Source: Bryopsis sp. KO-2023
Taxonomy: Eukaryota > Chlorophyta > Ulvophyceae > Bryopsidales > Bryopsidaceae
Length of the DNA stretch: 64,000 bases
NCBI GenBank assembly: GCA_030272585.1
Contig: BSYQ01000004.1
Location: 6,138,001 to 6,202,000, forward strand
Direction of reading: 5' to 3'
Part shown: piece after piece, positions 25,467-64,000 of the stretch
Layout: each line of letters opens with the position of its first letter
Position numbering within the stretch: the stretch's first letter is position 1
Program-made: the position numbers and the translations under genes
The notes under the pieces: generated by a model
Databases searched by the model: none
Told to the model about the DNA's origin: nothing
Seen by the model: only the letters and a program-made list of their open reading frames with translations

Positions 25467-25479
25467 GGCCCCTAACAAG

Positions 25480-39282: not shown

Positions 39283-39345
39283 GTTCGGAGTGTTTTCAAC
39301 TTGGCTGTGTCTTGTCATGACACAGACCTGAAAAGGGCTGCCTGC

Positions 39346-40794: not shown

Positions 40795-42142
40795 AGGGCT
40801 GCCTGCAATTCCTTGCTGCAAATGCTCAACACCATCATAAAAAGAGTGACAATCATGCAATTTCAATTGGTAAGCTCCACGCTTCTTCTATCTTCTTCCT
40901 TATGTTGATTTTCTCTTCCCATAATTGGAAAAACTCATTTGTTTCTTTTTTTAATGTGTATTGTTAACACATTTTGTGATTTATTGTTTCTTTTGGGGGG
41001 GCTTTCAGAGGCTGCAAAAATCAATGGATTCTGCATTGTCTCCAAAAACTCCGACGGGCGATGACAGACTGGCTGGAATACAGGAAACAGGGAACGACTC
41101 TCCGAAATCCAAAGAACCACTGGAAGGTTCAGAAAGCCCTGCACCTGGGTCTGAACATCGGGCACCCGTTCTCTACTCTACTGAAGGTAATATGACTCAG
41201 GTTTGGTGATGGCATTGTGGGTGAATATCTACATTTTTTTATTTTTATTTTTTTTTTTGGGGGGGGGGGGTGAGGAGGGGTCGGTGAAAAGGGCCCAATA
41301 AGGTTGCTGTTTGAACATGACCCGACAAGGATGTTTTCCAATAAGGAAACCAACAGTTTTTGGAGGCATACCGAATTTAATTTTTTTTGGTAAAGCCAGT
41401 TATCCGTCCACCTCCTCCCAGATTTTCACAAACAGCCAAAACCTTTGAATTCCAAGTCTGAGCATTGCTTAACCTCATTGCCTCACTACTTTATTCGCAG
41501 ATCGATCTTTTTCTCAATCTTGTATGCATGAGCCTGCTGGTCTCTTATTGATGCATCGTACCAATCGTTCACTCTTTCATGTTTTTCTTTTGCTTTTCCT
41601 GGTCACTGTTTCTGCATGATGAATCAGAGGGTGAAGTTCCGAGCACTTCAGCCCTGACAGCTGAATTAGCATCACTTGCGGAGAAAGAAGACATCAAAGG
41701 TCTGGCTGCTCTAGAAAAAGCTGAGCAATCCAGAAACATGGATGAACAGCCTGCAATCAAAGTGAGCGAAGAAAGCAAGGACTCCGAAGAAACACATGCT
41801 GAATCGTCCGATGCACAGGTCGCTTCGACCAGTGGTTCGATGGTTAGATCTAACACTGCCGGGATTGAAGGCAAGTGGCCGAAAGGCTAAAATAATCTGA
41901 GTGTTTTGGAGAAGGATATGCTGCGGTGCAAAACTCAGTGGTGGTGTGTCGTTTCTTCCCCTGTAATATAATACTGTTTGGTTGCTTCTTCCTTTTTTTC
42001 TCTGAAAAAGTCATTGCAAGTTAGATAAATATTAGGACCCCTATCTTCTTAACCAACGGCTTCGTTTCGTGGAAAGACATTTTTCAGCTGGAGCTTTGAG
42101 CAAATTGCTCTCATTCCAATAATTCAGGAGGTACTGTCTTTT

Positions 42143-42192
42143 GTATGAAAATTGTACCTTGCAAATTCTTTTGTGAGGTACAATTTTCATAC
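42143..42192. repeat. Short inverted repeat (17-bp arms)
   Basis: GTATGAAAATTGTACCT and its exact complement are separated by 16 bp within a BIG intron. Mirrored at 60185-60234. Confidence 0.9.
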
Positions 42193-43919
42193 ACCTACAA
42201 TTTTTTTTTAATTTTTTTTTAAAATTGATGCAACTGAATGGATGCGATGATGTTCACAGCCTTTGCATCCCACTCCAAAAAAAACAAAAAGTCGTTGAAC
42301 AGCACCTTAGTGAGTGTTTTTGAATTGTCTTGTCAATATGCAGTGAACTGATCCACTTGTTCTTCGTGTGTTGAAAATCCAGCTTGCTGGGATGACGCCT
42401 GCGAGTGGGTCCACAGAGGACTATTATCGACAGGGAAAGCTGCTGGCTTTGGAGCTGCTGGTCAAAGTGTTTGAGAACTCAGGGCACAAATGGGATAATG
42501 TCCGATTGCCGTTTTGCGAACAGCTCAGACTGCCATTATGTCTGGTCCTTGTTAGAAACTGTTCGCCTTCCGAAGCTAAGGTGATTGCCATAATTTATTT
42601 CTTCAATCTGTTGTTCGACCACCCACTGGGCAGTATTTGTGCTGGGAAAATTCATTTGCCGATGCTGCTGATGGTTGATGTTTGCTATGTTGAAATCTGT
42701 GGAACAGTCGTTTCAATTTGCGGTGCGATTATTCTGTGCGATAATGCTTCAGCCACAGCTGAGATTGGGCTTGAAAGCAGAATTGGGAGCTCTATATCCA
42801 TTGCTGCTGATGAGACCTCTGGAGAGCAGGCCCTTGGACCCAGGATTGCTGTTTGTGGCTCTTTCATCTGTCAAAAGGCAACGTCGGGAACCCCAAATGC
42901 AGGTATACTACCTCTCTCTACCTCTCCTTCTCTTTTCCAAGCCAATGGTGCTCTTTGTCCAATCTTTAATGAAACCCTTTCCCTGAATTCAAGCCAAGCA
43001 AAAAGTGTGAACACAGAGTCATTATTAGTAATTGTTGAACTTGAATCCACCAGATTAGCACCTCTGCGAAATACATGATTCATGAAGGTGTTAATGGTGT
43101 GGGTGGCTTTCTTTTTTTTTTATGGAAGGGAACGGGGTAAGTATGAGTGAACGGCTGCAAGTCCGTTATGAATGGGAAGTGATGTGGTGTCATTGTTTGT
43201 GTGTTGAGGTGGATCTTTTTATCAATTTTGACTGTGACTTGCAAGCTGCCAATTTGTATGAAAGAACTGCCAAAGCCTTGAGCTTGTTGACTGTGTATGG
43301 CGATCCCAACGCTCCCCCTGGCCAAAGCTCCAGAGTCAGAGATTGCATACACTGTGGCAATGTTGAATAGCCTGGATGCCTGGGCAGGTATTTTAAGTCA
43401 AGATAGGCGTTTTGGGGTTACTAAAGGCTTTCCAAAACTGCATTAAATACAGGGGGAAACCATGAAAGCAAAGATCTGTTCGATAAGTAGAAAACTGAAA
43501 ACTGGGCCAGGCTTTTCACTTCAATTAGTTTTGATCAATTTAGCATTCATCGTAAGAATTTCTTTGCAACACTTAAAATGAAAAATGTATAAGGTACTGG
43601 TTTGGTTAGGGTTTGGCTAGATTTGGCTTCATATGCAGGATTGTCGTTATTTTGACAGGTCCAATACGGGAAGCAGCTGCCTTCACTGAATTTCCAAGCC
43701 GTGGGTTGCAAATGGCGTAGAAAACAAGCCGGAAGCGCTGGGAGCGTTTTTGAGGAAACACAGAGACGAATTGGACGAAACCATGATGAAGGAATACTTG
43801 GGACATCATGATGACATGCCCATTGCTGTCATGCATGCCTATATCGATATGGAGCAGTACATGAGTCTCACAATTGATGAAGCTTTAAGGAAGCTGCTCG
43901 CTGGGTTCAGAATTCCTGG

Positions 43920-45210
43920 TATGGTGAGGTCATCCTGAATTGAGATATAAACAGGAGATGTGCAGAGAAAAGAGCAAATTAAGATGGGAAGAAATAAAAA
44001 TGTCGATGTGGCCATGGACGGTCACTCAGAGTTATCGGGGGAGGATCGCCGCCGGCGAAGCAGTGCAGATGCTGAGGGAAACCATCCAGAGGGCTGTCGG
44101 AGCGGAACGACTCAAGGTGGACTGAACAAAACCACGTCTGGTTTTTTGTAGATATCTGCTTCTTGAATGTACGCTGGGGTGGATGTCCGGGGCATCGACA
44201 TTCAAATATGAAAAAAAAATGACTGATAGTTTGCACAACACATATGTTATTGGTTTGCACGAGGCCGCCCTAAAATGCCCGAGTGAAATTCTTCCACAAT
44301 GTTTTTTTTTTCAAAATTCAATAATAATGAGAACAGTTGTTGGAAAATGGTCCACGGTCTGGTGGAGTGGGGCAAAGTTTTCGTGATTCGTGAAAAAAAT
44401 CCGAATTTGTGCAATCTACTTTTCATGAACGTCACCACTGGACTCAGCTTTTGCATGAGACCTTGGGTACCCGCCCCTGAATCTGCATGAACACATGCAT
44501 GTGCATGTTGGATTTCATGCATCCGTGCATCTCTTTGATCAATATGATGCATGCCTCCAGTTTGACCTGAAATCTGCCACACATCACATGCACATCAATT
44601 TAAAAATTTGCAGAAGCTTGAGAGACTGGTGTTTTATATCGACTCATTCTTCTAAAAATATCATCTTTTCATTCCACAACTGGAAAACAAGAAAAACGAA
44701 AGATGACCGAACATGATACAGAAAAAATTGTCGTTCGCGTTCACAGTCGTCAAGAGACGTCACCAACGCGACGTTTTAGTATCTTTTCTCTTGTTTTGAA
44801 AATCAGTCTGCTCGCGCAGGAGATCCCACCGTCCAGCCCATCGTCGCCCCACTGCGATGGAATCTCGCAAAGATTCTCACCAGCGTGTGTGTCCAGAAAC
44901 GACTTGAAGCGAGAACGCGCCTCCCCGACGACTTTCTTCACGCTCGATTGGCGTGTACGACCAAAGAACAAACAAACAAATATACAAATATACAAGTAAA
45001 CAAATATAACATCTGTCAATTCTCGAATCTATGTCCCTAAAAAGACTGGAAAAAAGAATGAAAACCCAAGCACTCAATCCATCAATAATTTAAAAACCAC
45101 AAAAAAGAATCGCAATATGTAGGCACCGCCGTACGAACCCAGCATCAAAGCAATCAATCAATGATACACTCAGCGCCCGAGGTTGCGGGTGTTTTGCAAG
45201 CGAAGGACTG
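43920..45210. other. Between the BIG remnant and the Kelch-like gene; two unassigned ORFs
   Basis: A plus-strand frame 43940-44125 ends 'GEAVQMLRETIQRAVGAE' plus a basic tail and stop. A minus-strand frame 45019-44750 reads 'VKKVVGEARSRFKSFLDTH' and 'WGDDGLDGGISC' before its stop. Both have protein-like composition but no recognised family or proven start. The remainder includes ATGCAT-rich DNA near 44480-44550. Mirrored at 57167-58457. Confidence 0.3.
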
Positions 45211-46114
45211 ATGCGAGTGGCTTCCGTGGAAGGGAAGAAAATGTTATCCGCAGAAGCCTTGAAAAGTGAACTTTCTGATCCATGGTAGTCTGTGGCCCCT
45301 CCCCCCCCGTCTTCCTCGAAAAACGACGTTTCTTTCAGATCTGACTCGGCCGCCCGGCTCCGCTCGAAGCGCCTTTGCCCAAGGAAGAGGGTACATTCTC
45401 GCAGCTGGACGCGGTTGCATGGACCCCCTGTACCTGCGCAAAGGACGCCAAAGAAAACGTCGATGTGGGATTCTGTGCGTTTTGACGTTTTTTGCCATTG
45501 GGATGACGTCTTTTCGGCTGTTCGCGGGAGGATATGTCTTATTGGCGGTTGGGGAGGAGCGAATACGACCGTGCAGAAGTCGAAGCAGCTTTTGATCTCG
45601 ACGAATTCGCGCTTGATGTGGTACGACTATCAGAACGATACTGTCGGGATTCTGAGCGAAGCCCAGGTGAAAAAACATACTCACCTGAGACAGCAATATC
45701 TTACATTTTTTCGATTTTTTTCAGAACTTTTATTGTTTTTTCTTTGTCCATTTTTTTGTTTTGTTTGGGAGAGAGGAGTTGATATTCTGTTTTCTTTAAA
45801 TTTTCTTTTTTTTTTTTGGAAACCCTGAAAACCAAAAACATGATTCTGAGACCGGATAAGATGACAGAAATGTGGACTTTTTTTTTTTCAACTTTGAATT
45901 GAATTATTTTGACCCTTTACCTGATTTTTTTTTTTTTTTTTAGGAAGGTGTATTTTATGGTATGTTCCCTGGGCAAATGAACAAACTTCATCAATCGACA
46001 CCGGTATGGGTGGTCACTAGAGCTAAAGACTGGAAGGCAGCCAACAGCAAAGAATATCTTACTAAAATGGACACAGAAACAGTTCTGGAATTCCAAATCA
46101 ACAATGAAACATGA
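45211..46114 (+). CDS. Kelch-like small protein, three exons (copy B, complete)
   Basis: Exons 45211-45284, 45405-45666 and 45944-46114 join in phase to give 168 aa. Kelch features: 'WTRLHGPPVPAQR' (the W...P.PR strand), 'GRICLIGGWGGANTT' (hydrophobic run then GG) and 'RLMWYDYQNDT'. That is about one and a half Kelch repeats, too few to close a beta-propeller, so it may be a fragment of a larger ancestor or an adaptor domain. The C-terminal part ('FYGMFPGQMNKLHQSTPVW') is not recognised. Introns have GTAGTC/CTCGCAG and GTGAAA/TTTTAG borders. Present three times in the window. Confidence 0.5.
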
Positions 46115-48013
46115 GAAACTGAAATTCTTATTTAAGAAAAAGAAGAAGAAATAATCAGTACCATGCAGTTTTATTTTGGGTTACATAATGAGCTCTGAGA
46201 TGGATGAGGTTTATATTTTGGTTTTTAAGATTATGAGTAATCAGCTTTTCAAATTATGGATTTTTTTGTTGGTAACTTTTCTGCGGATGCATTTTCTTGC
46301 TTTATTTCGTTTCAGTGATATTTCTGTTTGAGGTGCTGTGGCCGAAAGTGTTCTGAGAAAAAAAATAAACTTCCCCATGCGTATGTGCATTTCCTTAGAA
46401 TCTCGGTCAGGATGTTCCTGCAAATATATAATTTTAAAATTACCAAATCAATAGTACTTGCTGCATGCCCATTCCAATTTTCTTGATATTCCCAATTTTT
46501 ACTTTTAACTTCTTCGGAAGGGGGGAAGGAGGCTGAGTGCTGTGCGTACAAAAGAGAGCCATTTCTGCTTTTTCTGCCCGTCATTTTTTTTCAGTGTGTT
46601 GTGACGGCATAAACCTTTTACAACAGTGACCTTCAAAAGGCGAATAACGAACAATGTGTGTAGTTTTATCTTTGCCCCAGTCGTACAATTACGACACCAA
46701 CTTTACGGGTACAACAAGTGTTAATTTCTGAAAGGTTATGTTATGCTAGCAATCGATTGTTAGAGGTCATTTCAGTCTTTTTCTTTTTTTCCCAACAATG
46801 CATCAGGATCTTTTCCCTTTTCGGGGGATGACTGTATTTATATTATACAAATATATTATATATATGGTTGCTATCATGCTAAAAATATATGTATACGCGA
46901 CATTTTTATGTGTTGATCTTAGGCAAAAGATATGCATAGTAATTTACAGAACAGTTCTTGATACATCATCATATAACTCTGGTCCCAGCAAAAGGACAAA
47001 AATTAGAAATGCGACTTGTTTTTCATGCACAGATTGAACAGGTGTGGTTTCCTTTCTGGACACGCATCCAGAAAGGCTCTCTTTTTCCGGATCCCAATGT
47101 GGACTTTTTTTGAGCAAAGATTTGCTTACGAATGTTGAATGTCAGGAATGAGCTCATCTGCTGCTCCATCTGGAAACGTGGAGGAAACACGAAAAGAGGA
47201 AATCGTGAAAAATGCCGAACTCTGAGTGAATCCAAGAGGTGCTGTGGGTGTGGAAAGATTTGGTGATTTGGTGTGTATTGTGGCAGGGAATGTCAAAAAG
47301 CAACACTGGGGGGGGCCATCACCACCCAGTGTGGTCGTCTGCAAGGACAAAAGTGGCAAGTGAAGTGGGCGTTGGAAAGTGGAGGGATCCTTGACTCCTC
47401 TTGACCTGTCCCCAAAATGCACAATAGCTAGGGTGTTACCCCCTTCTGCAAACGTGTCACAGACCCCCAACACCCCCAGTGATACACTTTGATACACAGT
47501 ATGATACACTTTTCATCACCCGTATACGCAAGTGGTGATCGAAAGGGATTTGTAAAAACTGAAATTAGACCCAGTGGGGTGACCCCACGCGCTTTCTACA
47601 TTTCTCCAGTCTCGAATCAACAAGGACTAAAGCTAACAAGTCCGGAAAGAGTGTGTTTCGTTGAGAACGTTGAGAATCGAGAATATGCTCCAGCTCTTCC
47701 GAAGCAGCCTTGGCGGCGTTGGGATGCTGATTAAAAAAAGGGTCGACTGCGATAAAACTCGTTCAGGTCTTGAAACTAACGGGGTCGGCACGGCAGGAGG
47801 CCAGTGGTTTGACAACTGTGCCGAAAGTGATACCCAGTTGATTTTAATCAACATGTTTCAATTATGCTTGCGTATAAATGGGGCGGGCTTATTGCGGCGG
47901 GTATTCTTTTTGTTTTTTCCGTCTAGAACGGTACCGGTGTGAACCGACCAGTGAAACACTGGAGCCCAAGAAGGGCTAGAAGAACGACTGTAGGCGACAG
48001 TCGCAGTTTAGGA
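46115..48013. other. DIRS leader region, copy B
   Basis: Same content as 570-2468, including the dispersed repeat at 46823-47015. No gene recognised. Confidence 0.4.
46823..47015 (+). repeat. Dispersed repeat, copy B
   Basis: Duplicate of 1278-1470 carried by the segmental copy. Confidence 0.6.
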
Positions 48014-48703
48014 ATGGGATTCCAGGTGGACCCAGAAGCTATACGAAGCTACCTAAACGATCTCAGGGAAGAGATAGGGGTAACTGGGTTGCCCGACGCC
48101 GCCGACTTCTACACTTCGCTACTGACGGGGGTTGTACCTCGGTACGTGAAGAATCCAGTTCCAAGACCCGAAGGTTTGGGGTTTGGGGTGGGTTGGTTTT
48201 CGGCGACGCACACTATCCAAGGAGCGAGGGTCTTACAGGGGTTAGGCACTCAGACAGGCTACGGACAGGAGTATTTGAATTGGTATCCCGTCACCAGCAA
48301 TCTTTTTGATCTGGTTTGCGCACTGGCGCAGGTTGTTTTGAGCGGAGGTTTAGGTGACGCAGAAAAGATTTTGTTGTTACCCTTTCTGAAAGGCGCCAAG
48401 GATATACTCGACCTTGCCACGTCGAACCTGGAAGTGCTTCGTTTAAAGGTCGACGAGCCTGAGCTTCCAGTATGGGCGATAGTCAAAGACAATATCCGCC
48501 TGCACGGGCGACCTGGGACCTTTGTGCCCGAGTCAGTCCGAGAGCAGATTCGCAAGGTGGAGGACCGCCGACAGATCGCCAGCATGAAAGTGGCCGTGGA
48601 ACGCCGCAACCATTCGGGCGGTGGGAGTCGAGAGAACAAGCGGTGGAAAGGGAACGGACCGGCGAAAGGACGCGGGGACGACAACACGAAGAAAGAGAAC
48701 TAA
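48014..48703 (+). CDS. DIRS-like gag-like protein (copy B)
   Basis: Identical in translation to copy A (2469-3158). The first ATG is at 48014; the frame is open from 47939. Basic, Gly-rich C-terminus. It overlaps the RT frame that opens at 48472 and stops 17 bp before the RT ATG. Confidence 0.6.
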   Translation: MGFQVDPEAIRSYLNDLREEIGVTGLPDAADFYTSLLTGVVPRYVKNPVPRPEGLGFGVGWFSATHTIQGARVLQGLGTQTGYGQEYLNWYPVTSNLFDLVCALAQVVLSGGLGDAEKILLLPFLKGAKDILDLATSNLEVLRLKVDEPELPVWAIVKDNIRLHGRPGTFVPESVREQIRKVEDRRQIASMKVAVERRNHSGGGSRENKRWKGNGPAKGRGDDNTKKEN

Positions 48704-48720
48704 CTGAGGTACCACCATTT

Positions 48721-50489
48721 ATGAGATTGCGAAAAAGTTATGCGCAGTGGGAGGCGCTGGGGTGTGAAAAAGAAGTTCTTAGGTGGATAAAAAAGGGGGT
48801 TCCCTGTTCGTGGAACGAGCTAGGTCCACCCCCGCCGTTTCGGCCTCGGCGCGTTAGTAAACTTACTGTCGACGAACGACAGAGTTGGGATACGCTGCGG
48901 GAAAGTTATCTTGAAAAGGGCGTGATAAAAAGAGTGAGCTCAGCTAGTCATGTGTCTGCGGCTTTTTTACGTCCTAAGAAGGACGCTGGCCACAGGCTGA
49001 TTGTAAATTTAATACCTTTGAACAAATACTGTAGAAAATTTAGTTCAAAGTTCGAAACCCTCGGAAAGCTGGGTAGTAGGATTCGTAGGGGAGGAAAAAT
49101 GTTTTCGTTTGATATTAGCGATGCTTATTATCATTTGGAGATAGAGCCCCGATTTAAAAAATACTTTTGTTTTGAATTAGACGGTGAATTGTTTCAAATG
49201 GAGTGTTTGCCAATGGGTTGGACAAATAGTGTGTATATGTTTACTCGACTAATGAAGCAAATTTTGAGATTCTGGAGGAATCCGAAAGGGAAATTGTTAG
49301 AAATGGAATCAGGGGCAGTTCCTACCCATAATTATGCAGATTTGTATATACTACCATGGTTAGATGATTTTCTGGGGATTGGATATTCTGATGAAAATTT
49401 GGGTCGAGCTATACCATGGATGAGACGAATTCTGGGGTTGCTTGGATTGAAAACGAAAGAAGAGAAATGCACGTGGGAACCTACAGATAGGCTAGAACAC
49501 TTAGGCGTGATCATTGATTTGAAGGAAGGGGTTTTTGAGATGACCCAAAATAGATTACAGAAAATCAGGGGACTGGCCAGTTCGCTGTTGACGAATGCGA
49601 AACAGCGATGTCGCATGGTTCGCGCGAAAGACCTTGCAGTATTTACCGGGAGTGCGATTTCTACTCTCTTGGCGATTCCTATCGCTAAATTCTTTTTGCG
49701 ATCACTCTATGACGCTCTAGCAAAGCGAACGCACTGGGGCAGTTTCGTCAGAATATCCCATCAGGGGATGCAAGATTTGTTATGGTGGCGCAGCTTGACT
49801 AAAAAGTTTAATGGTGCACCCATATGGCGAGAGCCACAGACTGTGGTGGTCGCTACTGATGCGTCGAATACAGGGTGGGGTGGGGTGATCGGACCAACTG
49901 TGGAAGGTATTTCAAAAGAAACGCAGGGGAAAACGAATTTAGTGCGAGGATTTTGGCAGGGAGGTGAAAAAGAAATGCACATCAATTTTTTGGAGCTGCG
50001 CAGTGTACGCAACACTGTGAAGGCTTTTGGGGAACGACTGTTTAATCGACAGGTTCATTTGCTGTCGGATAGTCAAGTCGTGTGTGCGATTTTAGAGAAG
50101 TGGTCTACGCCCAGTAGGGCGCTCATGAAGGAGTTGCGCCTGTTATGGTATTATTTGGATCTGAAACGAATTGTGTTATCCCCCTCGTATATTTCAACTC
50201 ACGAAAATACTTGGGCTGATGCGTTGTCACGTTCACGAAGGGAGGACGAGTGGATGTTGGCGCCCAAATATTTCCGAGCTATGGAGAGATGCTACGGCCC
50301 GCATGGCCTGGATTTGTTTGCAGACCGCCACAACTACCAACTTCCTCGGTACGTCAGCCAGGTGTGGGATCCGCAGGCGGATCGTTTGGACGCATTCTCG
50401 GCGAAGTGGGAGGGCAACCTGTGGGCTTTCCCACCGCCATATCTTTTGGATCGAGTTTTGGAGTTCCTGTACCTCAACCCCGTCGACAT
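48721..50489 (+). pseudogene. DIRS-like reverse transcriptase-RNase H (copy B, most complete)
   Basis: About 590 residues from ATG 48721. RT motif A 'FSFDISDAYYHL' lies near residue 130, the catalytic 'LPWLDDFLG' near 212, RNase H 'VVATDASNTGWGG' near 375 and 'HENTWADALSR' near 493. The DIRS-type extension 'LDLFADRHNYQLPRYVSQVW' lies near 528 and 'WAFPPPYLLDRVLEFLYL' near 575. That order (RT, RNase H, then the FAD...LP...PPYLL block) is characteristic of DIRS retrotransposons, which normally continue to a tyrosine recombinase. Here the foldback element follows at once, and the frame stays open to 50823 with about 110 Cys/His/Gln-rich residues encoded by it. The element is therefore not complete. 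Confidence 0.92.
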
Positions 50490-51887
50490 CAGTCATGGGC
50501 TGAACAGGACAGACCCCTGTCCTGTGCGATGCACAGGACAGGGTTCTGTGCGGGTTCTGTGCACTCTGTGCTGTCCTGTTCTGTTTTGCGAAATTCCACA
50601 GGACAGACCCACGTCTGTCCTGTGTCACACCCACCCTGTGCAACGCGACAGTCCCACACCCTGTGCAGCCTGTGCGCACACGTGGGACTGTGTACAGCAC
50701 AGTGCGCAGTCTGTGCAGGACAGACTGCACACTGTGCAGCACACAGTACACGTGGTCTGTGCAGCACAGATTAAGTACTGTACTGCACAGTGCGCAGTCT
50801 GTGCTGCACAGACTACGAACTGACACCTACTTCGCCTGTTTTAGGCAGGCGCCAGGTCGGTCTGGACAGGTGGGGTGCCTGTCCAGACCGACCTGGCGCC
50901 TGTCTAAAACAGGCGACTTAATTAAGCACATATTAGCGTGCTAACTGGGTATCAATCAGTTAAGTATTGAGTTAATTAATTAAAGAAGTGATATTATTAT
51001 ATACATTTTTCAATGTATGAATGACGTGAGCCGAGCTCACCAGCCACCGACTAGAGGGAGTCGGTCGACTCTAGGAGGATTCGAACCCGGGTTGGCTAAG
51101 CCCGAGTCGAAGGCACTACGAAGTAGCGGACCCCACCATAGGGACGCTTAAGTGGGGGCCGTTACCTATAAGTACCTATTTTTAGCAATAGAAACAATCG
51201 GGTACTTAAAAGTAACTGCCCCCACTTGAGCGTCCCTATGGTGGGGTCCGCTACTTCGTAGTGCCTTCGACTCGGGCTTAGCCCACCCGGGTTCGAATCC
51301 TCCTAGAGTCGACCGACTCCCTCTAGTCGGTGGCTGGTGAGCTCGGCTCACGTCATTCATACATTGAAAAATGTATATAATAATATCACTTCTTTAATTA
51401 ATTAACTCAATACTTAACTGATTGATACCCAGTTAGCACGCTAATATGTGCTTAATTAAGTCGCCTGTTTTAGACAGGCGCCAGGTCGGTCTGGACAGGC
51501 ACCCCACCTGTCCAGACCGACCTGGCGCCTGCCTAAAACAGGCGAAGTAGGTGTCAGTTCGTAGTCTGTGCAGCACAGACTGCGCACTGTGCAGTACAGT
51601 ACTTAATCTGTGCTGCACAGACCACGTGTACTGTGTGCTGCACAGTGTGCAGTCTGTCCTGCACAGACTGCGCACTGTGCTGTACACAGTCCCACGTGTG
51701 CGCACAGGCTGCACAGGGTGTGGGACTGTCGCGTTGCACAGGGTGGGTGTGACACAGGACAGACGTGGGTCTGTCCTGTGGAATTTCGCAAAACAGAACA
51801 GGACAGCACAGAGTGCACAGAACCCGCACAGAACCCTGTCCTGTGCATCGCACAGGACAGGGGTCTGTCCTGTTCAGCCCATGACTG
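50490..51887. mobile_element. Foldback element FB2 at the centre of the giant palindrome
   Basis: 1398 bp with ends CAGTCATGGGC and GCCCATGACTG; arms 50490-51188 and 51189-51887. The layout is the same as FB1: CTGTGC/GCACAG-rich outer parts, nested 83-bp hairpins, TTAATTAA-containing AT-rich part, and B-box motif GGTTCGAATCC in the right arm (51290-51300) and its complement in the left (51077-51087). The arms are almost identical, unlike FB1, but the central ~60 bp is asymmetric in the same way and orientation as in FB1, so both descend from one element. Beyond each end the DIRS RT-RNase H begins, in mirror image. Confidence 0.85.
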
Positions 51888-53656
51888 ATGTCGACGGGGT
51901 TGAGGTACAGGAACTCCAAAACTCGATCCAAAAGATATGGCGGTGGGAAAGCCCACAGGTTGCCCTCCCACTTCGCCGAGAATGCGTCCAAACGATCCGC
52001 CTGCGGATCCCACACCTGGCTGACGTACCGAGGAAGTTGGTAGTTGTGGCGGTCTGCAAACAAATCCAGGCCATGCGGGCCGTAGCATCTCTCCATAGCT
52101 CGGAAATATTTGGGCGCCAACATCCACTCGTCCTCCCTTCGTGAACGTGACAACGCATCAGCCCAAGTATTTTCGTGAGTTGAAATATACGAGGGGGATA
52201 ACACAATTCGTTTCAGATCCAAATAATACCATAACAGGCGCAACTCCTTCATGAGCGCCCTACTGGGCGTAGACCACTTCTCTAAAATCGCACACACGAC
52301 TTGACTATCCGACAGCAAATGAACCTGTCGATTAAACAGTCGTTCCCCAAAAGCCTTCACAGTGTTGCGTACACTGCGCAGCTCCAAAAAATTGATGTGC
52401 ATTTCTTTTTCACCTCCCTGCCAAAATCCTCGCACTAAATTCGTTTTCCCCTGCGTTTCTTTTGAAATACCTTCCACAGTTGGTCCGATCACCCCACCCC
52501 ACCCTGTATTCGACGCATCAGTAGCGACCACCACAGTCTGTGGCTCTCGCCATATGGGTGCACCATTAAACTTTTTAGTCAAGCTGCGCCACCATAACAA
52601 ATCTTGCATCCCCTGATGGGATATTCTGACGAAACTGCCCCAGTGCGTTCGCTTTGCTAGAGCGTCATAGAGTGATCGCAAAAAGAATTTAGCGATAGGA
52701 ATCGCCAAGAGAGTAGAAATCGCACTCCCGGTAAATACTGCAAGGTCTTTCGCGCGAACCATGCGACATCGCTGTTTCGCATTCGTCAACAGCGAACTGG
52801 CCAGTCCCCTGATTTTCTGTAATCTATTTTGGGTCATCTCAAAAACCCCTTCCTTCAAATCAATGATCACGCCTAAGTGTTCTAGCCTATCTGTAGGTTC
52901 CCACGTGCATTTCTCTTCTTTCGTTTTCAATCCAAGCAACCCCAGAATTCGTCTCATCCATGGTATAGCTCGACCCAAATTTTCATCAGAATATCCAATC
53001 CCCAGAAAATCATCTAACCATGGTAGTATATACAAATCTGCATAATTATGGGTAGGAACTGCCCCTGATTCCATTTCTAACAATTTCCCTTTCGGATTCC
53101 TCCAGAATCTCAAAATTTGCTTCATTAGTCGAGTAAACATATACACACTATTTGTCCAACCCATTGGCAAACACTCCATTTGAAACAATTCACCGTCTAA
53201 TTCAAAACAAAAGTATTTTTTAAATCGGGGCTCTATCTCCAAATGATAATAAGCATCGCTAATATCAAACGAAAACATTTTTCCTCCCCTACGAATCCTA
53301 CTACCCAGCTTTCCGAGGGTTTCGAACTTTGAACTAAATTTTCTACAGTATTTGTTCAAAGGTATTAAATTTACAATCAGCCTGTGGCCAGCGTCCTTCT
53401 TAGGACGTAAAAAAGCCGCAGACACATGACTAGCTGAGCTCACTCTTTTTATCACGCCCTTTTCAAGATAACTTTCCCGCAGCGTATCCCAACTCTGTCG
53501 TTCGTCGACAGTAAGTTTACTAACGCGCCGAGGCCGAAACGGCGGGGGTGGACCTAGCTCGTTCCACGAACAGGGAACCCCCTTTTTTATCCACCTAAGA
53601 ACTTCTTTTTCACACCCCAGCGCCTCCCACTGCGCATAACTTTTTCGCAATCTCAT
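51888..53656 (-). pseudogene. DIRS-like reverse transcriptase-RNase H (copy C)
   Basis: Mirror copy of 48721-50489 with identical translation. Its 3' end faces that of copy B across the foldback element, and the open frame likewise continues into the foldback to 51554. Confidence 0.92.
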
Positions 53657-53673
53657 AAATGGTGGTACCTCAG

Positions 53674-54363
53674 TTAGTTCTCTTTCTTCGTGTTGTCGTC
53701 CCCGCGTCCTTTCGCCGGTCCGTTCCCTTTCCACCGCTTGTTCTCTCGACTCCCACCGCCCGAATGGTTGCGGCGTTCCACGGCCACTTTCATGCTGGCG
53801 ATCTGTCGGCGGTCCTCCACCTTGCGAATCTGCTCTCGGACTGACTCGGGCACAAAGGTCCCAGGTCGCCCGTGCAGGCGGATATTGTCTTTGACTATCG
53901 CCCATACTGGAAGCTCAGGCTCGTCGACCTTTAAACGAAGCACTTCCAGGTTCGACGTGGCAAGGTCGAGTATATCCTTGGCGCCTTTCAGAAAGGGTAA
54001 CAACAAAATCTTTTCTGCGTCACCTAAACCTCCGCTCAAAACAACCTGCGCCAGTGCGCAAACCAGATCAAAAAGATTGCTGGTGACGGGATACCAATTC
54101 AAATACTCCTGTCCGTAGCCTGTCTGAGTGCCTAACCCCTGTAAGACCCTCGCTCCTTGGATAGTGTGCGTCGCCGAAAACCAACCCACCCCAAACCCCA
54201 AACCTTCGGGTCTTGGAACTGGATTCTTCACGTACCGAGGTACAACCCCCGTCAGTAGCGAAGTGTAGAAGTCGGCGGCGTCGGGCAACCCAGTTACCCC
54301 TATCTCTTCCCTGAGATCGTTTAGGTAGCTTCGTATAGCTTCTGGGTCCACCTGGAATCCCAT
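53674..54363 (-). CDS. DIRS-like gag-like protein (copy C)
   Basis: Mirror copy of 48014-48703, identical in translation. Confidence 0.6.
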   Translation of the reverse strand: MGFQVDPEAIRSYLNDLREEIGVTGLPDAADFYTSLLTGVVPRYVKNPVPRPEGLGFGVGWFSATHTIQGARVLQGLGTQTGYGQEYLNWYPVTSNLFDLVCALAQVVLSGGLGDAEKILLLPFLKGAKDILDLATSNLEVLRLKVDEPELPVWAIVKDNIRLHGRPGTFVPESVREQIRKVEDRRQIASMKVAVERRNHSGGGSRENKRWKGNGPAKGRGDDNTKKEN

Positions 54364-55361
54364 TCCTAAACTGCGACTGTCGCCTACAGTCGTTCTTCTA
54401 GCCCTTCTTGGGCTCCAGTGTTTCACTGGTCGGTTCACACCGGTACCGTTCTAGACGGAAAAAACAAAAAGAATACCCGCCGCAATAAGCCCGCCCCATT
54501 TATACGCAAGCATAATTGAAACATGTTGATTAAAATCAACTGGGTATCACTTTCGGCACAGTTGTCAAACCACTGGCCTCCTGCCGTGCCGACCCCGTTA
54601 GTTTCAAGACCTGAACGAGTTTTATCGCAGTCGACCCTTTTTTTAATCAGCATCCCAACGCCGCCAAGGCTGCTTCGGAAGAGCTGGAGCATATTCTCGA
54701 TTCTCAACGTTCTCAACGAAACACACTCTTTCCGGACTTGTTAGCTTTAGTCCTTGTTGATTCGAGACTGGAGAAATGTAGAAAGCGCGTGGGGTCACCC
54801 CACTGGGTCTAATTTCAGTTTTTACAAATCCCTTTCGATCACCACTTGCGTATACGGGTGATGAAAAGTGTATCATACTGTGTATCAAAGTGTATCACTG
54901 GGGGTGTTGGGGGTCTGTGACACGTTTGCAGAAGGGGGTAACACCCTAGCTATTGTGCATTTTGGGGACAGGTCAAGAGGAGTCAAGGATCCCTCCACTT
55001 TCCAACGCCCACTTCACTTGCCACTTTTGTCCTTGCAGACGACCACACTGGGTGGTGATGGCCCCCCCCAGTGTTGCTTTTTGACATTCCCTGCCACAAT
55101 ACACACCAAATCACCAAATCTTTCCACACCCACAGCACCTCTTGGATTCACTCAGAGTTCGGCATTTTTCACGATTTCCTCTTTTCGTGTTTCCTCCACG
55201 TTTCCAGATGGAGCAGCAGATGAGCTCATTCCTGACATTCAACATTCGTAAGCAAATCTTTGCTCAAAAAAAGTCCACATTGGGATCCGGAAAAAGAGAG
55301 CCTTTCTGGATGCGTGTCCAGAAAGGAAACCACACCTGTTCAATCTGTGCATGAAAAACAA

Positions 55362-55554
55362 GTCGCATTTCTAATTTTTGTCCTTTTGCTGGGACCAGAG
55401 TTATATGATGATGTATCAAGAACTGTTCTGTAAATTACTATGCATATCTTTTGCCTAAGATCAACACATAAAAATGTCGCGTATACATATATTTTTAGCA
55501 TGATAGCAACCATATATATAATATATTTGTATAATATAAATACAGTCATCCCCC
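55362..55554 (-). repeat. Dispersed repeat, copy C
   Basis: Mirror copy of 46823-47015. Confidence 0.6.
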
Positions 55555-56262
55555 GAAAAGGGAAAAGATCCTGATGCATTGTTGGGAAAAAAAGAAAAAG
55601 ACTGAAATGACCTCTAACAATCGATTGCTAGCATAACATAACCTTTCAGAAATTAACACTTGTTGTACCCGTAAAGTTGGTGTCGTAATTGTACGACTGG
55701 GGCAAAGATAAAACTACACACATTGTTCGTTATTCGCCTTTTGAAGGTCACTGTTGTAAAAGGTTTATGCCGTCACAACACACTGAAAAAAAATGACGGG
55801 CAGAAAAAGCAGAAATGGCTCTCTTTTGTACGCACAGCACTCAGCCTCCTTCCCCCCTTCCGAAGAAGTTAAAAGTAAAAATTGGGAATATCAAGAAAAT
55901 TGGAATGGGCATGCAGCAAGTACTATTGATTTGGTAATTTTAAAATTATATATTTGCAGGAACATCCTGACCGAGATTCTAAGGAAATGCACATACGCAT
56001 GGGGAAGTTTATTTTTTTTCTCAGAACACTTTCGGCCACAGCACCTCAAACAGAAATATCACTGAAACGAAATAAAGCAAGAAAATGCATCCGCAGAAAA
56101 GTTACCAACAAAAAAATCCATAATTTGAAAAGCTGATTACTCATAATCTTAAAAACCAAAATATAAACCTCATCCATCTCAGAGCTCATTATGTAACCCA
56201 AAATAAAACTGCATGGTACTGATTATTTCTTCTTCTTTTTCTTAAATAAGAATTTCAGTTTC

Positions 56263-57166
56263 TCATGTTTCATTGTTGATTTGGAATTCCAGAACTGTTT
56301 CTGTGTCCATTTTAGTAAGATATTCTTTGCTGTTGGCTGCCTTCCAGTCTTTAGCTCTAGTGACCACCCATACCGGTGTCGATTGATGAAGTTTGTTCAT
56401 TTGCCCAGGGAACATACCATAAAATACACCTTCCTAAAAAAAAAAAAAAAAATCAGGTAAAGGGTCAAAATAATTCAATTCAAAGTTGAAAAAAAAAAAG
56501 TCCACATTTCTGTCATCTTATCCGGTCTCAGAATCATGTTTTTGGTTTTCAGGGTTTCCAAAAAAAAAAAAGAAAATTTAAAGAAAACAGAATATCAACT
56601 CCTCTCTCCCAAACAAAACAAAAAAATGGACAAAGAAAAAACAATAAAAGTTCTGAAAAAAATCGAAAAAATGTAAGATATTGCTGTCTCAGGTGAGTAT
56701 GTTTTTTCACCTGGGCTTCGCTCAGAATCCCGACAGTATCGTTCTGATAGTCGTACCACATCAAGCGCGAATTCGTCGAGATCAAAAGCTGCTTCGACTT
56801 CTGCACGGTCGTATTCGCTCCTCCCCAACCGCCAATAAGACATATCCTCCCGCGAACAGCCGAAAAGACGTCATCCCAATGGCAAAAAACGTCAAAACGC
56901 ACAGAATCCCACATCGACGTTTTCTTTGGCGTCCTTTGCGCAGGTACAGGGGGTCCATGCAACCGCGTCCAGCTGCGAGAATGTACCCTCTTCCTTGGGC
57001 AAAGGCGCTTCGAGCGGAGCCGGGCGGCCGAGTCAGATCTGAAAGAAACGTCGTTTTTCGAGGAAGACGGGGGGGGAGGGGCCACAGACTACCATGGATC
57101 AGAAAGTTCACTTTTCAAGGCTTCTGCGGATAACATTTTCTTCCCTTCCACGGAAGCCACTCGCAT
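56263..57166 (-). CDS. Kelch-like small protein (copy C)
   Basis: Mirror copy of 45211-46114; exons 57166-57093, 56972-56711 and 56433-56263. No difference was seen in the translations. Confidence 0.5.
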
Positions 57167-58457
57167 CAGTCCTTCGCTTGCAAAACACCCGCAACCTCGG
57201 GCGCTGAGTGTATCATTGATTGATTGCTTTGATGCTGGGTTCGTACGGCGGTGCCTACATATTGCGATTCTTTTTTGTGGTTTTTAAATTATTGATGGAT
57301 TGAGTGCTTGGGTTTTCATTCTTTTTTCCAGTCTTTTTAGGGACATAGATTCGAGAATTGACAGATGTTATATTTGTTTACTTGTATATTTGTATATTTG
57401 TTTGTTTGTTCTTTGGTCGTACACGCCAATCGAGCGTGAAGAAAGTCGTCGGGGAGGCGCGTTCTCGCTTCAAGTCGTTTCTGGACACACACGCTGGTGA
57501 GAATCTTTGCGAGATTCCATCGCAGTGGGGCGACGATGGGCTGGACGGTGGGATCTCCTGCGCGAGCAGACTGATTTTCAAAACAAGAGAAAAGATACTA
57601 AAACGTCGCGTTGGTGACGTCTCTTGACGACTGTGAACGCGAACGACAATTTTTTCTGTATCATGTTCGGTCATCTTTCGTTTTTCTTGTTTTCCAGTTG
57701 TGGAATGAAAAGATGATATTTTTAGAAGAATGAGTCGATATAAAACACCAGTCTCTCAAGCTTCTGCAAATTTTTAAATTGATGTGCATGTGATGTGTGG
57801 CAGATTTCAGGTCAAACTGGAGGCATGCATCATATTGATCAAAGAGATGCACGGATGCATGAAATCCAACATGCACATGCATGTGTTCATGCAGATTCAG
57901 GGGCGGGTACCCAAGGTCTCATGCAAAAGCTGAGTCCAGTGGTGACGTTCATGAAAAGTAGATTGCACAAATTCGGATTTTTTTCACGAATCACGAAAAC
58001 TTTGCCCCACTCCACCAGACCGTGGACCATTTTCCAACAACTGTTCTCATTATTATTGAATTTTGAAAAAAAAAACATTGTGGAAGAATTTCACTCGGGC
58101 ATTTTAGGGCGGCCTCGTGCAAACCAATAACATATGTGTTGTGCAAACTATCAGTCATTTTTTTTTCATATTTGAATGTCGATGCCCCGGACATCCACCC
58201 CAGCGTACATTCAAGAAGCAGATATCTACAAAAAACCAGACGTGGTTTTGTTCAGTCCACCTTGAGTCGTTCCGCTCCGACAGCCCTCTGGATGGTTTCC
58301 CTCAGCATCTGCACTGCTTCGCCGGCGGCGATCCTCCCCCGATAACTCTGAGTGACCGTCCATGGCCACATCGACATTTTTATTTCTTCCCATCTTAATT
58401 TGCTCTTTTCTCTGCACATCTCCTGTTTATATCTCAATTCAGGATGACCTCACCATA

Positions 58458-61400
58458 CCAGGAATTCTGAACCCAGCGAGCAGCTTCCTTAAAGCTTCAT
58501 CAATTGTGAGACTCATGTACTGCTCCATATCGATATAGGCATGCATGACAGCAATGGGCATGTCATCATGATGTCCCAAGTATTCCTTCATCATGGTTTC
58601 GTCCAATTCGTCTCTGTGTTTCCTCAAAAACGCTCCCAGCGCTTCCGGCTTGTTTTCTACGCCATTTGCAACCCACGGCTTGGAAATTCAGTGAAGGCAG
58701 CTGCTTCCCGTATTGGACCTGTCAAAATAACGACAATCCTGCATATGAAGCCAAATCTAGCCAAACCCTAACCAAACCAGTACCTTATACATTTTTCATT
58801 TTAAGTGTTGCAAAGAAATTCTTACGATGAATGCTAAATTGATCAAAACTAATTGAAGTGAAAAGCCTGGCCCAGTTTTCAGTTTTCTACTTATCGAACA
58901 GATCTTTGCTTTCATGGTTTCCCCCTGTATTTAATGCAGTTTTGGAAAGCCTTTAGTAACCCCAAAACGCCTATCTTGACTTAAAATACCTGCCCAGGCA
59001 TCCAGGCTATTCAACATTGCCACAGTGTATGCAATCTCTGACTCTGGAGCTTTGGCCAGGGGGAGCGTTGGGATCGCCATACACAGTCAACAAGCTCAAG
59101 GCTTTGGCAGTTCTTTCATACAAATTGGCAGCTTGCAAGTCACAGTCAAAATTGATAAAAAGATCCACCTCAACACACAAACAATGACACCACATCACTT
59201 CCCATTCATAACGGACTTGCAGCCGTTCACTCATACTTACCCCGTTCCCTTCCATAAAAAAAAAAGAAAGCCACCCACACCATTAACACCTTCATGAATC
59301 ATGTATTTCGCAGAGGTGCTAATCTGGTGGATTCAAGTTCAACAATTACTAATAATGACTCTGTGTTCACACTTTTTGCTTGGCTTGAATTCAGGGAAAG
59401 GGTTTCATTAAAGATTGGACAAAGAGCACCATTGGCTTGGAAAAGAGAAGGAGAGGTAGAGAGAGGTAGTATACCTGCATTTGGGGTTCCCGACGTTGCC
59501 TTTTGACAGATGAAAGAGCCACAAACAGCAATCCTGGGTCCAAGGGCCTGCTCTCCAGAGGTCTCATCAGCAGCAATGGATATAGAGCTCCCAATTCTGC
59601 TTTCAAGCCCAATCTCAGCTGTGGCTGAAGCATTATCGCACAGAATAATCGCACCGCAAATTGAAACGACTGTTCCACAGATTTCAACATAGCAAACATC
59701 AACCATCAGCAGCATCGGCAAATGAATTTTCCCAGCACAAATACTGCCCAGTGGGTGGTCGAACAACAGATTGAAGAAATAAATTATGGCAATCACCTTA
59801 GCTTCGGAAGGCGAACAGTTTCTAACAAGGACCAGACATAATGGCAGTCTGAGCTGTTCGCAAAACGGCAATCGGACATTATCCCATTTGTGCCCTGAGT
59901 TCTCAAACACTTTGACCAGCAGCTCCAAAGCCAGCAGCTTTCCCTGTCGATAATAGTCCTCTGTGGACCCACTCGCAGGCGTCATCCCAGCAAGCTGGAT
60001 TTTCAACACACGAAGAACAAGTGGATCAGTTCACTGCATATTGACAAGACAATTCAAAAACACTCACTAAGGTGCTGTTCAACGACTTTTTGTTTTTTTT
60101 GGAGTGGGATGCAAAGGCTGTGAACATCATCGCATCCATTCAGTTGCATCAATTTTAAAAAAAAATTAAAAAAAAATTGTAGGTGTATGAAAATTGTACC
60201 TCACAAAAGAATTTGCAAGGTACAATTTTCATACAAAAGACAGTACCTCCTGAATTATTGGAATGAGAGCAATTTGCTCAAAGCTCCAGCTGAAAAATGT
60301 CTTTCCACGAAACGAAGCCGTTGGTTAAGAAGATAGGGGTCCTAATATTTATCTAACTTGCAATGACTTTTTCAGAGAAAAAAAGGAAGAAGCAACCAAA
60401 CAGTATTATATTACAGGGGAAGAAACGACACACCACCACTGAGTTTTGCACCGCAGCATATCCTTCTCCAAAACACTCAGATTATCCCAGCCTTTCGGCC
60501 ACTTGCCTTCAATCCCGGCAGTGTTAGATCTAACCATCGAACCACTGGTCGAAGCGACCTGTGCATCGGACGATTCAGCATGTGTTTCTTCGGAGTCCTT
60601 GCTTTCTTCGCTCACTTTGATTGCAGGCTGTTCATCCATGTTTCTGGATTGCTCAGCTTTTTCTAGAGCAGCCAGACCTTTGATGTCTTCTTTCTCCGCA
60701 AGTGATGCTAATTCAGCTGTCAGGGCTGAAGTGCTCGGAACTTCACCCTCTGATTCATCATGCAGAAACAGTGACCAGGAAAAGCAAAAGAAAAACATGA
60801 AAGAGTGAACGATTGGTACGATGCATCAATAAGAGACCAGCAGGCTCATGCATACAAGATTGAGAAAAAGATCGATCTGCGAATAAAGTAGTGAGGCAAT
60901 GAGGTTAAGCAATGCTCAGACTTGGAATTCAAAGGTTTTGGCTGTTTGTGAAAATCTGGGAGGAGGTGGACGGATAACTGGCTTTACCAAAAAAAATTAA
61001 ATTCGGTATGCCTCCAAAAACTGTTGGTTTCCTTATTGGAAAACATCCTTGTCGGGTCATGTTCAAACAGCAACCTTATTGGGCCCTTTTCACCGACCCC
61101 TCCTCACCCCCCCCCCCCAAAAAAAAAAATAAAAATAAAAAAATGTAGATATTCACCCACAATGCCATCACCAAACCTGAGTCATATTACCTTCAGTAGA
61201 GTAGAGAACGGGTGCCCGATGTTCAGACCCAGGTGCAGGGCTTTCTGAACCTTCCAGTGGTTCTTTGGATTTCGGAGAGTCGTTCCCTGTTTCCTGTATT
61301 CCAGCCAGTCTGTCATCGCCCGTCGGAGTTTTTGGAGACAATGCAGAATCCATTGATTTTTGCAGCCTCTGAAAGCCCCCCCAAAAGAAACAATAAATCA

Positions 61401-63094
61401 CAAAATGTGTTAACAATACACATTAAAAAAAGAAACAAATGAGTTTTTCCAATTATGGGAAGAGAAAATCAACATAAGGAAGAAGATAGAAGAAGCGTGG
61501 AGCTTACCAATTGAAATTGCATGATTGTCACTCTTTTTATGATGGTGTTGAGCATTTGCAGCAAGGAATTGCAGGCAGCCCTGATAATGATAATGATTAC
61601 AATGTTGCCTGAGAAGCCGCTCCGCTTCTATCGCAACCAAATCCCAAACACAAGCTCAAACCACCATTTCAGAGACTAAAGGTCTAATAATGTTCGTCGA
61701 AACCTCAACATTATCCTAATAAAATTTGCCACCCTCACTTGATCGTGATAAAAAAACAAAGTACGTAAAGATGTAAAACCCAAAAATTCTGGGAACGTAT
61801 TACGAATCGAAGACAATGCACCACATATAAACAAAAAATGAATCTCTGTTTCAATTTGTCCATTGCCACCTAACGGACAGGTACGATCCGTAAACTCATG
61901 TCGAATCCCACCATATACCCTCAAGTCATGTAAACCCGCCCGAAATCGCACATAAATGGTCCGTAAAGGAATATCCTTTATCACTGACAATGGATCCCAG
62001 TATGTAAGGATTCGGCAGAATCTAAGTAGATTCAGGCAAACCTGCAGGCTTGCAGACTGGCAGTGATTGGGCTGACAGATTAGGCTGCAGGTTGACTGCT
62101 ATGATTCTGCAGAAGCAGGAATGGTTCAGGTCCTTCAGACCTGCAGATTGATAGGCTGGTAGTCAGCAGATTGGCAGACTGACGAAGTGCCAGAGTAGTC
62201 GGGCTGACAGGTTGGCTGACGACAGACAGATGCTGACAGCGCTGCAGAACGTGGGCTGCAGAGCTGGCAGGCAGAAAGTTCTAGAAGGTCTTAGATGGCA
62301 GACTCAGAACCGCGGTACCCTGCAAGGTGTCTGAGGCTGCATGTCATGGAAGGGACTTGGCAGTTTGATGGTCTGCAACACTGATGCAGACTGATGTTAT
62401 AGCTTAGGATCAGTTTGGATCAGGGTTGGAAGAAACGGTATAAGTTGTTGGGGCTTGGACATTCTTGTAACTTAACCTAACCTTGGTTTGGAACCTGATC
62501 TCTCCTTGAACCTTGCTAGGTTCAAGTGTCTCCCTTGATGGTCGTTCAATAGAACGGCAGTCAGACTGGCAGACCGGCAGGGTCGCAGTCTTCGGTGTTG
62601 AAGCAGAAAAAGCGGTCTGCAGGGCAGATTCGTTACACAGTATCTGACCACTAAACCCCGCAAAAGACGATATAAACCTGCCCGCTTAATCGAAGTATCA
62701 AAGAACTGGCCACGCATCCTCCTTTTATATGAACATGACCATACCCGCAAATCAATCGGAGACCTTCCATCAAAGGCCGGATAATCCTTTTTTATCAAGT
62801 TCCCTAAACCCTTCAACCAACAAGCCCGATGCGTCGCATATTCTTGTAACGCCCTTAGCAAATCATACAAAAGGTGATCCTCCGATAGATCACACAACGA
62901 ATTCCAAAACCGTATAGTCTGTCGGACCAAATTATAATGTAAAGGCCAAATACCCAACTCTGCGAAAATGTATCCAGTGTGCACATTGGGAGGAAGCCTC
63001 AAAACAAATCGAAAAAAAGAGCGATAAAGTAGCAGGCAGCCCTTTTCAGGTCTGTGTCATGACAAGACACAGCCAAGTTGAAAACACTCCGAAC
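58458..63094 (-). pseudogene. BIG/Sec7-type ARF-GEF, decayed (right copy)
   Basis: Mirror of 39283-43919 with the same LINE insertion and frame changes. The one informative difference is at 60487-60489: this arm keeps TGG, so 'KWPKGWDNLSVLEKDML' is open, where the left arm has TAA. This is the less damaged, presumably ancestral, state. Confidence 0.85.
61583..63031 (-). mobile_element. 5'-truncated LINE in the BIG exon (right copy)
   Basis: Mirror of 39346-40794, with target duplications at 63032-63043 and 61571-61582. Presence in both arms shows the insertion is older than the inverted duplication. Confidence 0.88.
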
Positions 63095-63840: not shown

Positions 63841-64000
63841 ATGAACCAAGTTCCAGCCATGGAGTGGGATCTGCCCTTGAATATCATAAATGGCATTCTT
63901 GAAAAAACCTCAAAAAGGGATCTAGCCAGGTCTCGCTCTGTAGCGTCCATATGGTGTCAAGCAAGCGAGGAGCCTCGTTTGTCCGAAAAACTTCGGTGCG
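63841..64000 (+). CDS. F-box/WD40-repeat protein, 5' end (right copy, cut by window edge)
   Basis: The first 53 codons of the gene at 37490-38536, same sequence, opposite strand: start plus the F-box helices. Whether the WD40 part follows depends on how far the palindrome arm extends. Confidence 0.75.
   Translation, partial: MNQVPAMEWDLPLNIINGILEKTSKRDLARSRSVASIWCQASEEPRLSEKLRC

Follow-up and report, generated by a model that had tools for sequence, protein, structure and literature searches.

A foldback element of probable hAT affiliation at the junctions of an apparent tandem and inverted triplication in Bryopsis

The best explanation of the locus as a whole, and in our judgement a probable one, is that the foldback element described here, E, is a non-autonomous hAT element, and that an exchange between an ancestral copy (E*) and a second copy in opposite orientation (E3), followed by a tandem step through a further copy (E1), led to the triplication of a 44-kb chromosome segment, S. 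E* itself, the order of the events and the molecular route of the rearrangement are what we infer.

Results

Architecture of E in the window

The stretch of DNA analysed (the window; 64 kb, C4:6138001-6202000) belongs to a 91-Mb assembly of 28 contigs, which was the genome searched throughout. It contains two copies of E, named E2 and E1, with the following features.

50482..50489, plus strand: left flank of E2, GTCGACAT, DIRS sequence
50490..51887, plus strand: E2, foldback element with a B-type arm on both sides, in the middle of a 91-kb palindrome
50490..50830, minus strand: outer arm, B type reversed, rich in CTGTGC/GCACAG, matching one end of the hAT element L049
50831..51546, no strand: palindromic core, about 84% to a second family with different arms
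50831..50917, no strand: internal hairpin with the second-family arm motif (motif counted on the equivalent E1 hairpin)
51177..51200, no strand: asymmetric centre (loop), pattern common to E0, E1, E2 and E3
51290..51300, plus strand: B-box-like GGTTCGAATCC; its mirror copy starts at 51087 on the minus strand
51460..51546, no strand: internal hairpin with the second-family arm motif (motif counted on the equivalent E1 hairpin)
51547..51887, plus strand: outer arm, B type
51888..51895, plus strand: right flank of E2, ATGTCGAC, half of a split 8-bp target duplication
4653..4660, plus strand: left flank of E1, CTCACGAA, within DIRS, 284 bp short of the E2 junction, fitting nTnnnnAn
4661..6043, plus strand: E1, the second copy (A arm 4661-4912, core 4987-5702, B arm 5703-6043)
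6044..6051, plus strand: right flank of E1, GTGGTGGG, identical to the right flank of E0 and to the reverse complement of the E3 target duplication

E2 has exact ends, CAGTCATGGGC at 50490 and GCCCATGACTG at 51887. A repeat search of 50000-52400 returned one inverted repeat with arms of 1177 nt each (50000-51176 and 51201-52377) and a 24-nt spacer; the arm identity printed as 100% is a rounded value, the halves of E2 differing at five sites. Of these five mismatches, found base by base outside the 24-nt centre, four lie no more than 40 bp from the centre and the fifth 96 bp from it. Hairpins with 39-nt stems lie at 50832-50916 and 51461-51545. The nested-palindrome architecture that an initial annotation had read at this place is borne out by the exact ends, the single inverted repeat and the hairpin in each half, and its further statements, that E has no protein of its own and that the same ends and central asymmetry recur in a second copy at 4661-6043, proved correct. 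What it had missed is that the palindrome extends beyond the element, E2 being the centre of a larger one with a self-match over 38377-64000 in the window and over C4:6143656-6234770 in the assembly (about 91 kb; 91,166 aligned columns, 99.853%), and that the left arm of E1 (A) is unlike its right arm (B), whereas E2 has B on both sides. The outer symmetry of E2, previously regarded as a property of the element, is instead a product of the local rearrangement.

In E0 and E1, self-complementarity over about 870 of 1383 bp reaches 96.1% and 95.6%, respectively, so that long inverted repeats occupy most of the element; the outermost arms are asymmetric (52.8% and 55.5%). Outside the innermost 40 bp on each side of the centre, symmetry extends to 125 bp in E0 and to 102 bp in E1; the nearest difference between A and B that is common to E0, E1 and E3, and able to locate the switch in E2, lies about 357 bp from the centre. 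The symmetry of E2 was consequently rejected as proof of a fold-back at the 24-nt loop, since E0 and E1 are themselves symmetric over these distances; with the first common A/B difference so far out, the switch may lie anywhere in the core, and it may have come about by fold-back at the loop or by recombination elsewhere in the core.

A dispersed family with 8-bp target duplications

Searched against the genome, E2 gave at least 106 BLAST matches among the best 40 of 409 candidates; the DNA search scores the best 40 candidates per query, and absence from such lists is weak evidence. A 25-base pattern from the core, with up to two mismatches allowed, matched 50 times forward and 52 times in reverse genome-wide, and the reversed control did not match on either strand. 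One hundred of these 102 matches were grouped by position; they make up 62 loci distributed over 17 contigs. Of these loci, 38 are minus/plus pairs, 35 of them at a spacing of 107.

Nine family loci (L025-L033) and one hAT locus (L049) were examined outside the C4 locus, and those with an end or flank outside the fetched stretch (L026, L030, L031, L032 and L033) were excluded from the duplication count. Perfect 8-bp target duplications flank four of the five elements outside the locus for which both ends and flanks were in hand (L025, GTCGTGAC; L027, CTGTTCAC; L028, ATTGGGAA; L049, CTGAGCAG), and L029, the fifth, has no matching duplication. Inside the C4 locus there are three more: E3 has CCCACCAC, a second-family element nested within it has CTGTACTG, and the third, ATGTCGAC, is split. 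T stands at position 2 in six of these seven duplications, A at position 7 likewise in six, and both in five, which corresponds to nTnnnnAn, the form of the duplications made by hAT elements.

The whole-genome search and the comparison of ends and duplications that the initial annotation had suggested thus yielded dispersed copies with defined ends and 8-bp target duplications, which upholds its view of E as a member of a family rather than a chance structure. It had also considered that only two copies might exist genome-wide, or that all might lie within one DIRS segment; the number of loci speaks against the former and the copies on C2, C5, C7 and other contigs against the latter. E2 and E1 both touch DIRS sequence, as they would if E were a by-product of DIRS rearrangement and nothing else, yet we give this reading practically no credence and have rejected it, given that the elements on C2, C5 and C7 have 8-bp duplications of their own and that the core pattern marks 62 loci.

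Both arms of E match an element with a hAT domain

The element at L049 (C10:62900-69400) extends from 478 to 6445 of that stretch (5,968 bp, about 6 kb) and its ends correspond to the arms of E, one to the B arm (82%, 278 columns) and the opposite one to the A arm (86%, 233 columns). One open stretch within it matches the hAT dimerisation domain PF05699 (E 2.7e-12), the sole domain recognised there, as five of the six L049 stretches scanned gave no Pfam match. The core of E had no match in L049. The ends of the element, CAGTC/CAGAC, fit four of the five positions of the short end repeat of type YARNG that is the usual hAT end consensus, the fifth being C, not G. PF05699 has 150 matches in the genome, and the B arm occurs in at least 40 places among the matches listed. 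Nine of the 36 B-arm places outside the rearranged locus lie within 8 kb (2.6-6.3 kb) of a PF05699 match, two of the nine being one C10 locus, in a count that used 22 of the 150 matches, the lower-scoring groups; for all 150, 0.95 such places would be expected. In a comparison aimed at an autonomous partner of the second family described below, an end-like match with one mismatch was present at a fixed place beside the hAT domain in 14 of 15 hAT loci, L034 having none, within stretches that span 1.5 kb on each side of the domain, beyond which element ends may fall.

On the strength of its sequence, E is a non-coding, non-autonomous hAT element with a foldback core, both ends of which are common to the hAT-domain element L049; we assign it to hAT because both arms match L049 with its PF05699 domain and because of the 8-bp duplications. 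The earlier statement that E resembles no known foldback or MITE family does not hold, both end arms being those of an element with a hAT transposase domain. Presumably, a hAT transposase acts on E in trans, and the CTGTGC repeats of the arms are perhaps bound by it. In E1, the two arms contain 19 and 16 CTGTGC/GCACAG and the core none, compared with 0.2-0.3 in shuffled sequences. In the middle of L049, too, CTGTGC is common (24, versus 2.2 in shuffles), so the motif is not special to the ends, and a role in binding is no more than a suggestion.

A core shared with a second family

The similarity of loci L028-L032 to E is limited to about 337-1062 of the 1398 bases of E, which corresponds to the core; this core is common to E and the second family at about 84%, and the arms of the second family are unrelated to those of E. 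The four second-family arms counted (in L028 and L032) contain 9-15 GACCGG and no CTGTGC, and the E1 arms contain no GACCGG. GACCGG itself is absent from the 87-bp hairpins at the edges of the core, in which two other motifs occur: CCTGTCCAGACCG (with up to two substitutions), also found in all four second-family arms and seven times in the element nested in E3, and TCTAAAACAGG (with up to one substitution), also found in three of the four arms and not in the nested element. Neither motif occurs in the E1 arms, and L049 has one chance-like match of each.

E looks like a second-family-type core placed between first-family arms, from which we infer a chimera of two hAT families; such a composition would explain why the initial annotation perceived a palindrome made of smaller palindromes. 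A bolder extension, which we consider rather improbable, is that the core is a module passing between hAT families, with remnants of the arms of one family as its hairpins and the arms of another now around it. Repeated fold-back repair would keep it palindromic, it would act as a rearrangement hot spot producing tandem-plus-inverted triplications, and its conserved B boxes may in addition serve to bind TFIIIC or to yield a hairpin RNA.

The B-box-like motif

The initial annotation had furthermore described Pol III B boxes. The B box as such is present: all three matches to GGTTCGANTCC in the 64-kb window (51290, plus; 51087, minus; 5446, plus) lie inside copies of E, and GGTTCGAATCC or AGTTCGAGTCC occurs in the core of seven of the eight copies tested, L026 being without a match. 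This distribution would suit a SINE-like Pol III element whose B boxes drive a short transcript, a reading that is nevertheless very unlikely and was not supported by the other searches, as the 110 bp upstream of the B box contain no A-box-like match in any of the seven copies, ARAGORN found no tRNA gene in the window, no Rfam family was found at gathering score, and the 8-bp duplications and the ends of E are of the cut-and-paste type. The 78 weak RNA-model matches, mostly to miRNA models, reflect the hairpins, and the identity of E as a tRNA or known RNA was rejected on these searches. The B box may have arisen by accident in a conserved palindrome, or it may bind a protein.

Three copies of a 45-kb stretch

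In the assembly, the order of the locus is DIRSa-E0-S+-E1-S+-E2-S- -E3, and the window contains the following parts of it.

6044..50489, plus strand: second copy of S (S+)
51888..64000, minus strand: start of the third, inverted copy of S (S-), which continues to C4:6234382
47927..50489, plus strand: part of a DIRS-type retrotransposon, inferred site of the ancestral E* (RVT_1, weak RNase H, weak Dam)
51888-54450, minus strand: mirror copy of this DIRS part
ending at 4660: truncated copy of this DIRS part

A 45-kb stretch, consisting of S and one element, is present in three copies in the order + + - (C4:6097067-6142660, 6142657-6188205 and 6190172-6234770), which are 99.85-99.88% identical. 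Fourteen runs of change separate copies 1 and 2, eight in the element and the base before it and six elsewhere in the 44 kb (three single bases, one GGG/AAA and two indels). Between copies 1 and 3 there are 11 runs, counting as one the beginning of the stretch, where no comparison was made. Four of the departures from copy 1 are common to copies 2 and 3, GGG/AAA occurs in copy 2 only, and a 25-bp insertion and four single-base changes occur in copy 3 alone. As for the flanks, E0 has ATGTCGAC on its left (C4:6097063-6097070) and GTGGTGGG on its right, and E3 has CCCACCAC on both sides, an intact target duplication; ATGTCGAC represents an 8-bp duplication split between the left side of E0 and the right side of E2.

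The locus is read from the assembly, in which the arms are nearly identical and the junctions lie within the repeat, as would also be seen if the 91-kb palindrome and the triplication were an assembly artefact caused by false joins at the long inverted repeat, with E still a real hAT-type family. We regard this as unlikely in view of the non-identity of the S copies (the 25-bp insertion of copy 3, the GGG/AAA of copy 2, the four differences shared by copies 2 and 3, and three different lengths of a GAAA microsatellite) and of the exchanged 8-bp flanks, which false joins made at random would hardly produce, although the wrong joining of genuine E copies, or of two haplotypes, could mimic them.

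The DIRS sequence around the split duplication

The DIRS part beside E2 matches RVT_1 (1.3e-14) and, weakly, RNase H and Dam. A 456-codon frame beside E0 has no Pfam match and a weak match to the tyrosine recombinase XerD in NCBIfam (E 0.0017, far under the cut-off); in the DIRS order, the recombinase comes after the reverse transcriptase. To the left of E0, a 564-codon open frame (L005 5698-7392, minus strand) runs from the E0 arm into a weakly tyrosine-recombinase-like stretch and probably belongs to the recombinase of the interrupted DIRS. When the DIRS flanks are joined at the E* site, two of the three frames are open across the join, one with 675 codons before and 90 after it, the other with 90 before and 454 after, and the reverse-transcriptase frame stays open for about 90 codons more. 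Since the second frame is also open, openness alone proves little for the continuity of the DIRS, and the notion of a frame restored by the joining is weakened, with two of three frames open, the far frame without a Pfam match and no empty site. The genome search returned no empty E* site, and at least six matches were listed for the last 2 kb of DIRSb, none of them beside the DIRSa-like stretch on C2 (80%).

Discussion

Considering these findings, we propose the following hypothetical course of events, in which (i) a hAT transposase would bind the arms of E, cut at CAGTCATGGGC and paste the element with 8-bp duplications; (ii) E*, located in the DIRS element (target ATGTCGAC), and E3, in the opposite orientation (target CCCACCAC), would have flanked the 44-kb S; (iii) E* would have broken within its core or close to it, and copying or recombination into E3 would then have formed E0, with the flank of E* on its left and that of E3 on its right; (iv) the exchange with E3 would have produced S in reverse, and the return via the palindromic core of E* would have left E2 with two B arms and the leftover half of ATGTCGAC, giving E0-S+-E2-S- -E3 in a single step for which a separate inversion is not needed; (v) a second, tandem step through E1, whose hAT-like insertion end lies at CTCACGAA, would have led to S+ S+ S-. 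The two B arms of E2, the exchanged flank of E0 and the split ATGTCGAC would all be accounted for by the exchange between E* and E3 with a return through the core.

One clean duplication of E0 does not explain E1, because E1 differs from E0 by seven private changes within positions 1-583 and by none after, with only six runs of change elsewhere in S. E0 has the same bases as E3 at these seven sites and, wherever L025-L027 can be aligned, mostly the same as those copies too. From the placement of the changes, we take E1 to be a separate insertion that recombined with E0; no sampled copy has the bases of E1 at the private sites, so the changes could also be later mutations. Alternative transposition, with reversed or hybrid hAT ends, could likewise have generated E1 in place of a separate insertion and unequal crossing-over, and we treat it as a possible route that we do not favour. 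The right flank of E1 equals that of E0 and its left flank, CTCACGAA, is partnerless at the element and fits nTnnnnAn, a pattern that corresponds to the structure of reversed-ends duplications, in which the middle element has the duplication of the first on one side, as far as the available part of the source describes them (PMC3744419). However, the confinement of the seven differences to positions 1-583 suggests that the left part of E1 came from another copy, and the hybrid-element model expects identical copies and ectopic recombination chimeric ones, according to the accessible text of PMC2775673.

hAT MITEs and Ds-like deletion derivatives are non-coding, share their ends with a transposase-encoding element and are flanked by 8-bp duplications. 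E is like them in being non-coding and in having L049-type ends and 8-bp duplications, and unlike them in that its palindrome is much longer and its interior is not a remnant of L049 but the core shared with the second family. In maize, reversed-ends transposition of Ac/Ds yields a tandem duplication and a middle element with one unmatched flank, as the part of PMC3744419 available to us reports. The C4 locus resembles these products in the hAT ends at the tandem-duplication junction and in the single flank that E1 shares with E0, the other being unmatched; in contrast to them, the left part of E1 differs from E0, and simple reversed-ends transposition of E0 is therefore insufficient. The Foldback (FB) element of Drosophila has very long inverted arms and is prone to rearrangement, in the description given in the available text of PMC2775673; E shares such arms with FB, which we compared by its description, and is set apart by the linked hAT domain.

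A close parallel to the breakpoints themselves is Galileo of Drosophila, a P superfamily element with long, internally repetitive arms; at breakpoints, its copies face opposite ways, have exchanged their target duplications and are chimeric (PMC2775673, in the portion available). E has the long repetitive arms, the opposite orientation of the breakpoint copies and the exchanged duplications in common with it, and these features might place E in the P superfamily as well. Such a placement is extremely improbable and was rejected on the duplication sequences and the linked PF05699: Galileo duplications in D. willistoni have 7-8 bp and the consensus GTATTAC, as stated in the accessible part of PMC4168063, whereas those of E have 8 bp and are mostly nTnnnnAn, and the element that carries both arms of E encodes the hAT dimerisation domain. 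The outcome also differs, being a simple inversion for Galileo and a tandem plus inverted triplication at the E locus.

In the open literature searched, as far as its texts were accessible, the documented foldback element at breakpoints is Galileo, and we recognised no hAT foldback element there. The parts are known; their combination, a hAT foldback whose core two families share together with a tandem-plus-inverted triplication, we have not seen in that literature. E ties a foldback element to hAT, through shared ends, target duplications and a transposase domain, and the flanks at one locus (one split duplication, one intact, one unmatched) point to a path from a single segment to S+ S+ S-. 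If the assembly is right, the locus documents in compact form how pairs of inverted transposons with palindromic cores multiply parts of a chromosome in nature, and the chimera of two families suggests how hAT passengers can exchange parts.

Further features of the locus

Two other elements are inserted in E3 (both in L004). One is the nested second-family element at C4:6236177-6236666, with the ends CAGAGGTGGGC and CCCAGGTCTG. The other, of 656 bp (C4:6234771-6235426), has end repeats beginning with GGCTGGCAA and ending with TTTTTGCC, an apparent 9-bp duplication (GGTGGGGTG) and a short CCCTAAA telomere-like run inside; near-identical copies of it occur on C10 and C2, and we presume it to be Mutator-like.

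S contains host-type genes, which are accordingly present here in three copies: a WD40 repeat protein (window 37490-38569, minus strand) and a weak Sec7/Mon2 HUS-like stretch (window 42347-43078, plus strand). The GAAA microsatellite at about window position 18950 is longest in copy 1, which exceeds copy 2 by 44 bp and copy 3 by 20 bp. Between 7600 and 46400 of the window, S is a mosaic of matches to C6 (89-92%), to C19 (97-99%, in both orientations) and to C7 and C4:7.25 Mb (86-89%), which indicates a region with an older history of segmental duplication. C19 was considered as the unrearranged allele and rejected, as S matches it in pieces of both orientations and no C19 match was among those listed for the junction queries and the start of S; we take it to be another duplication. 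Finally, a repeat of about 636 bp (window 39740-40375) is found in at least 32 places at 90-94%, often as two copies on one strand at a distance of about 7.6-9 kb (as on C13, C9, C1, C7, C5 and C8), as expected of retrotransposon LTRs, of which the copy in the window would be a solo one.
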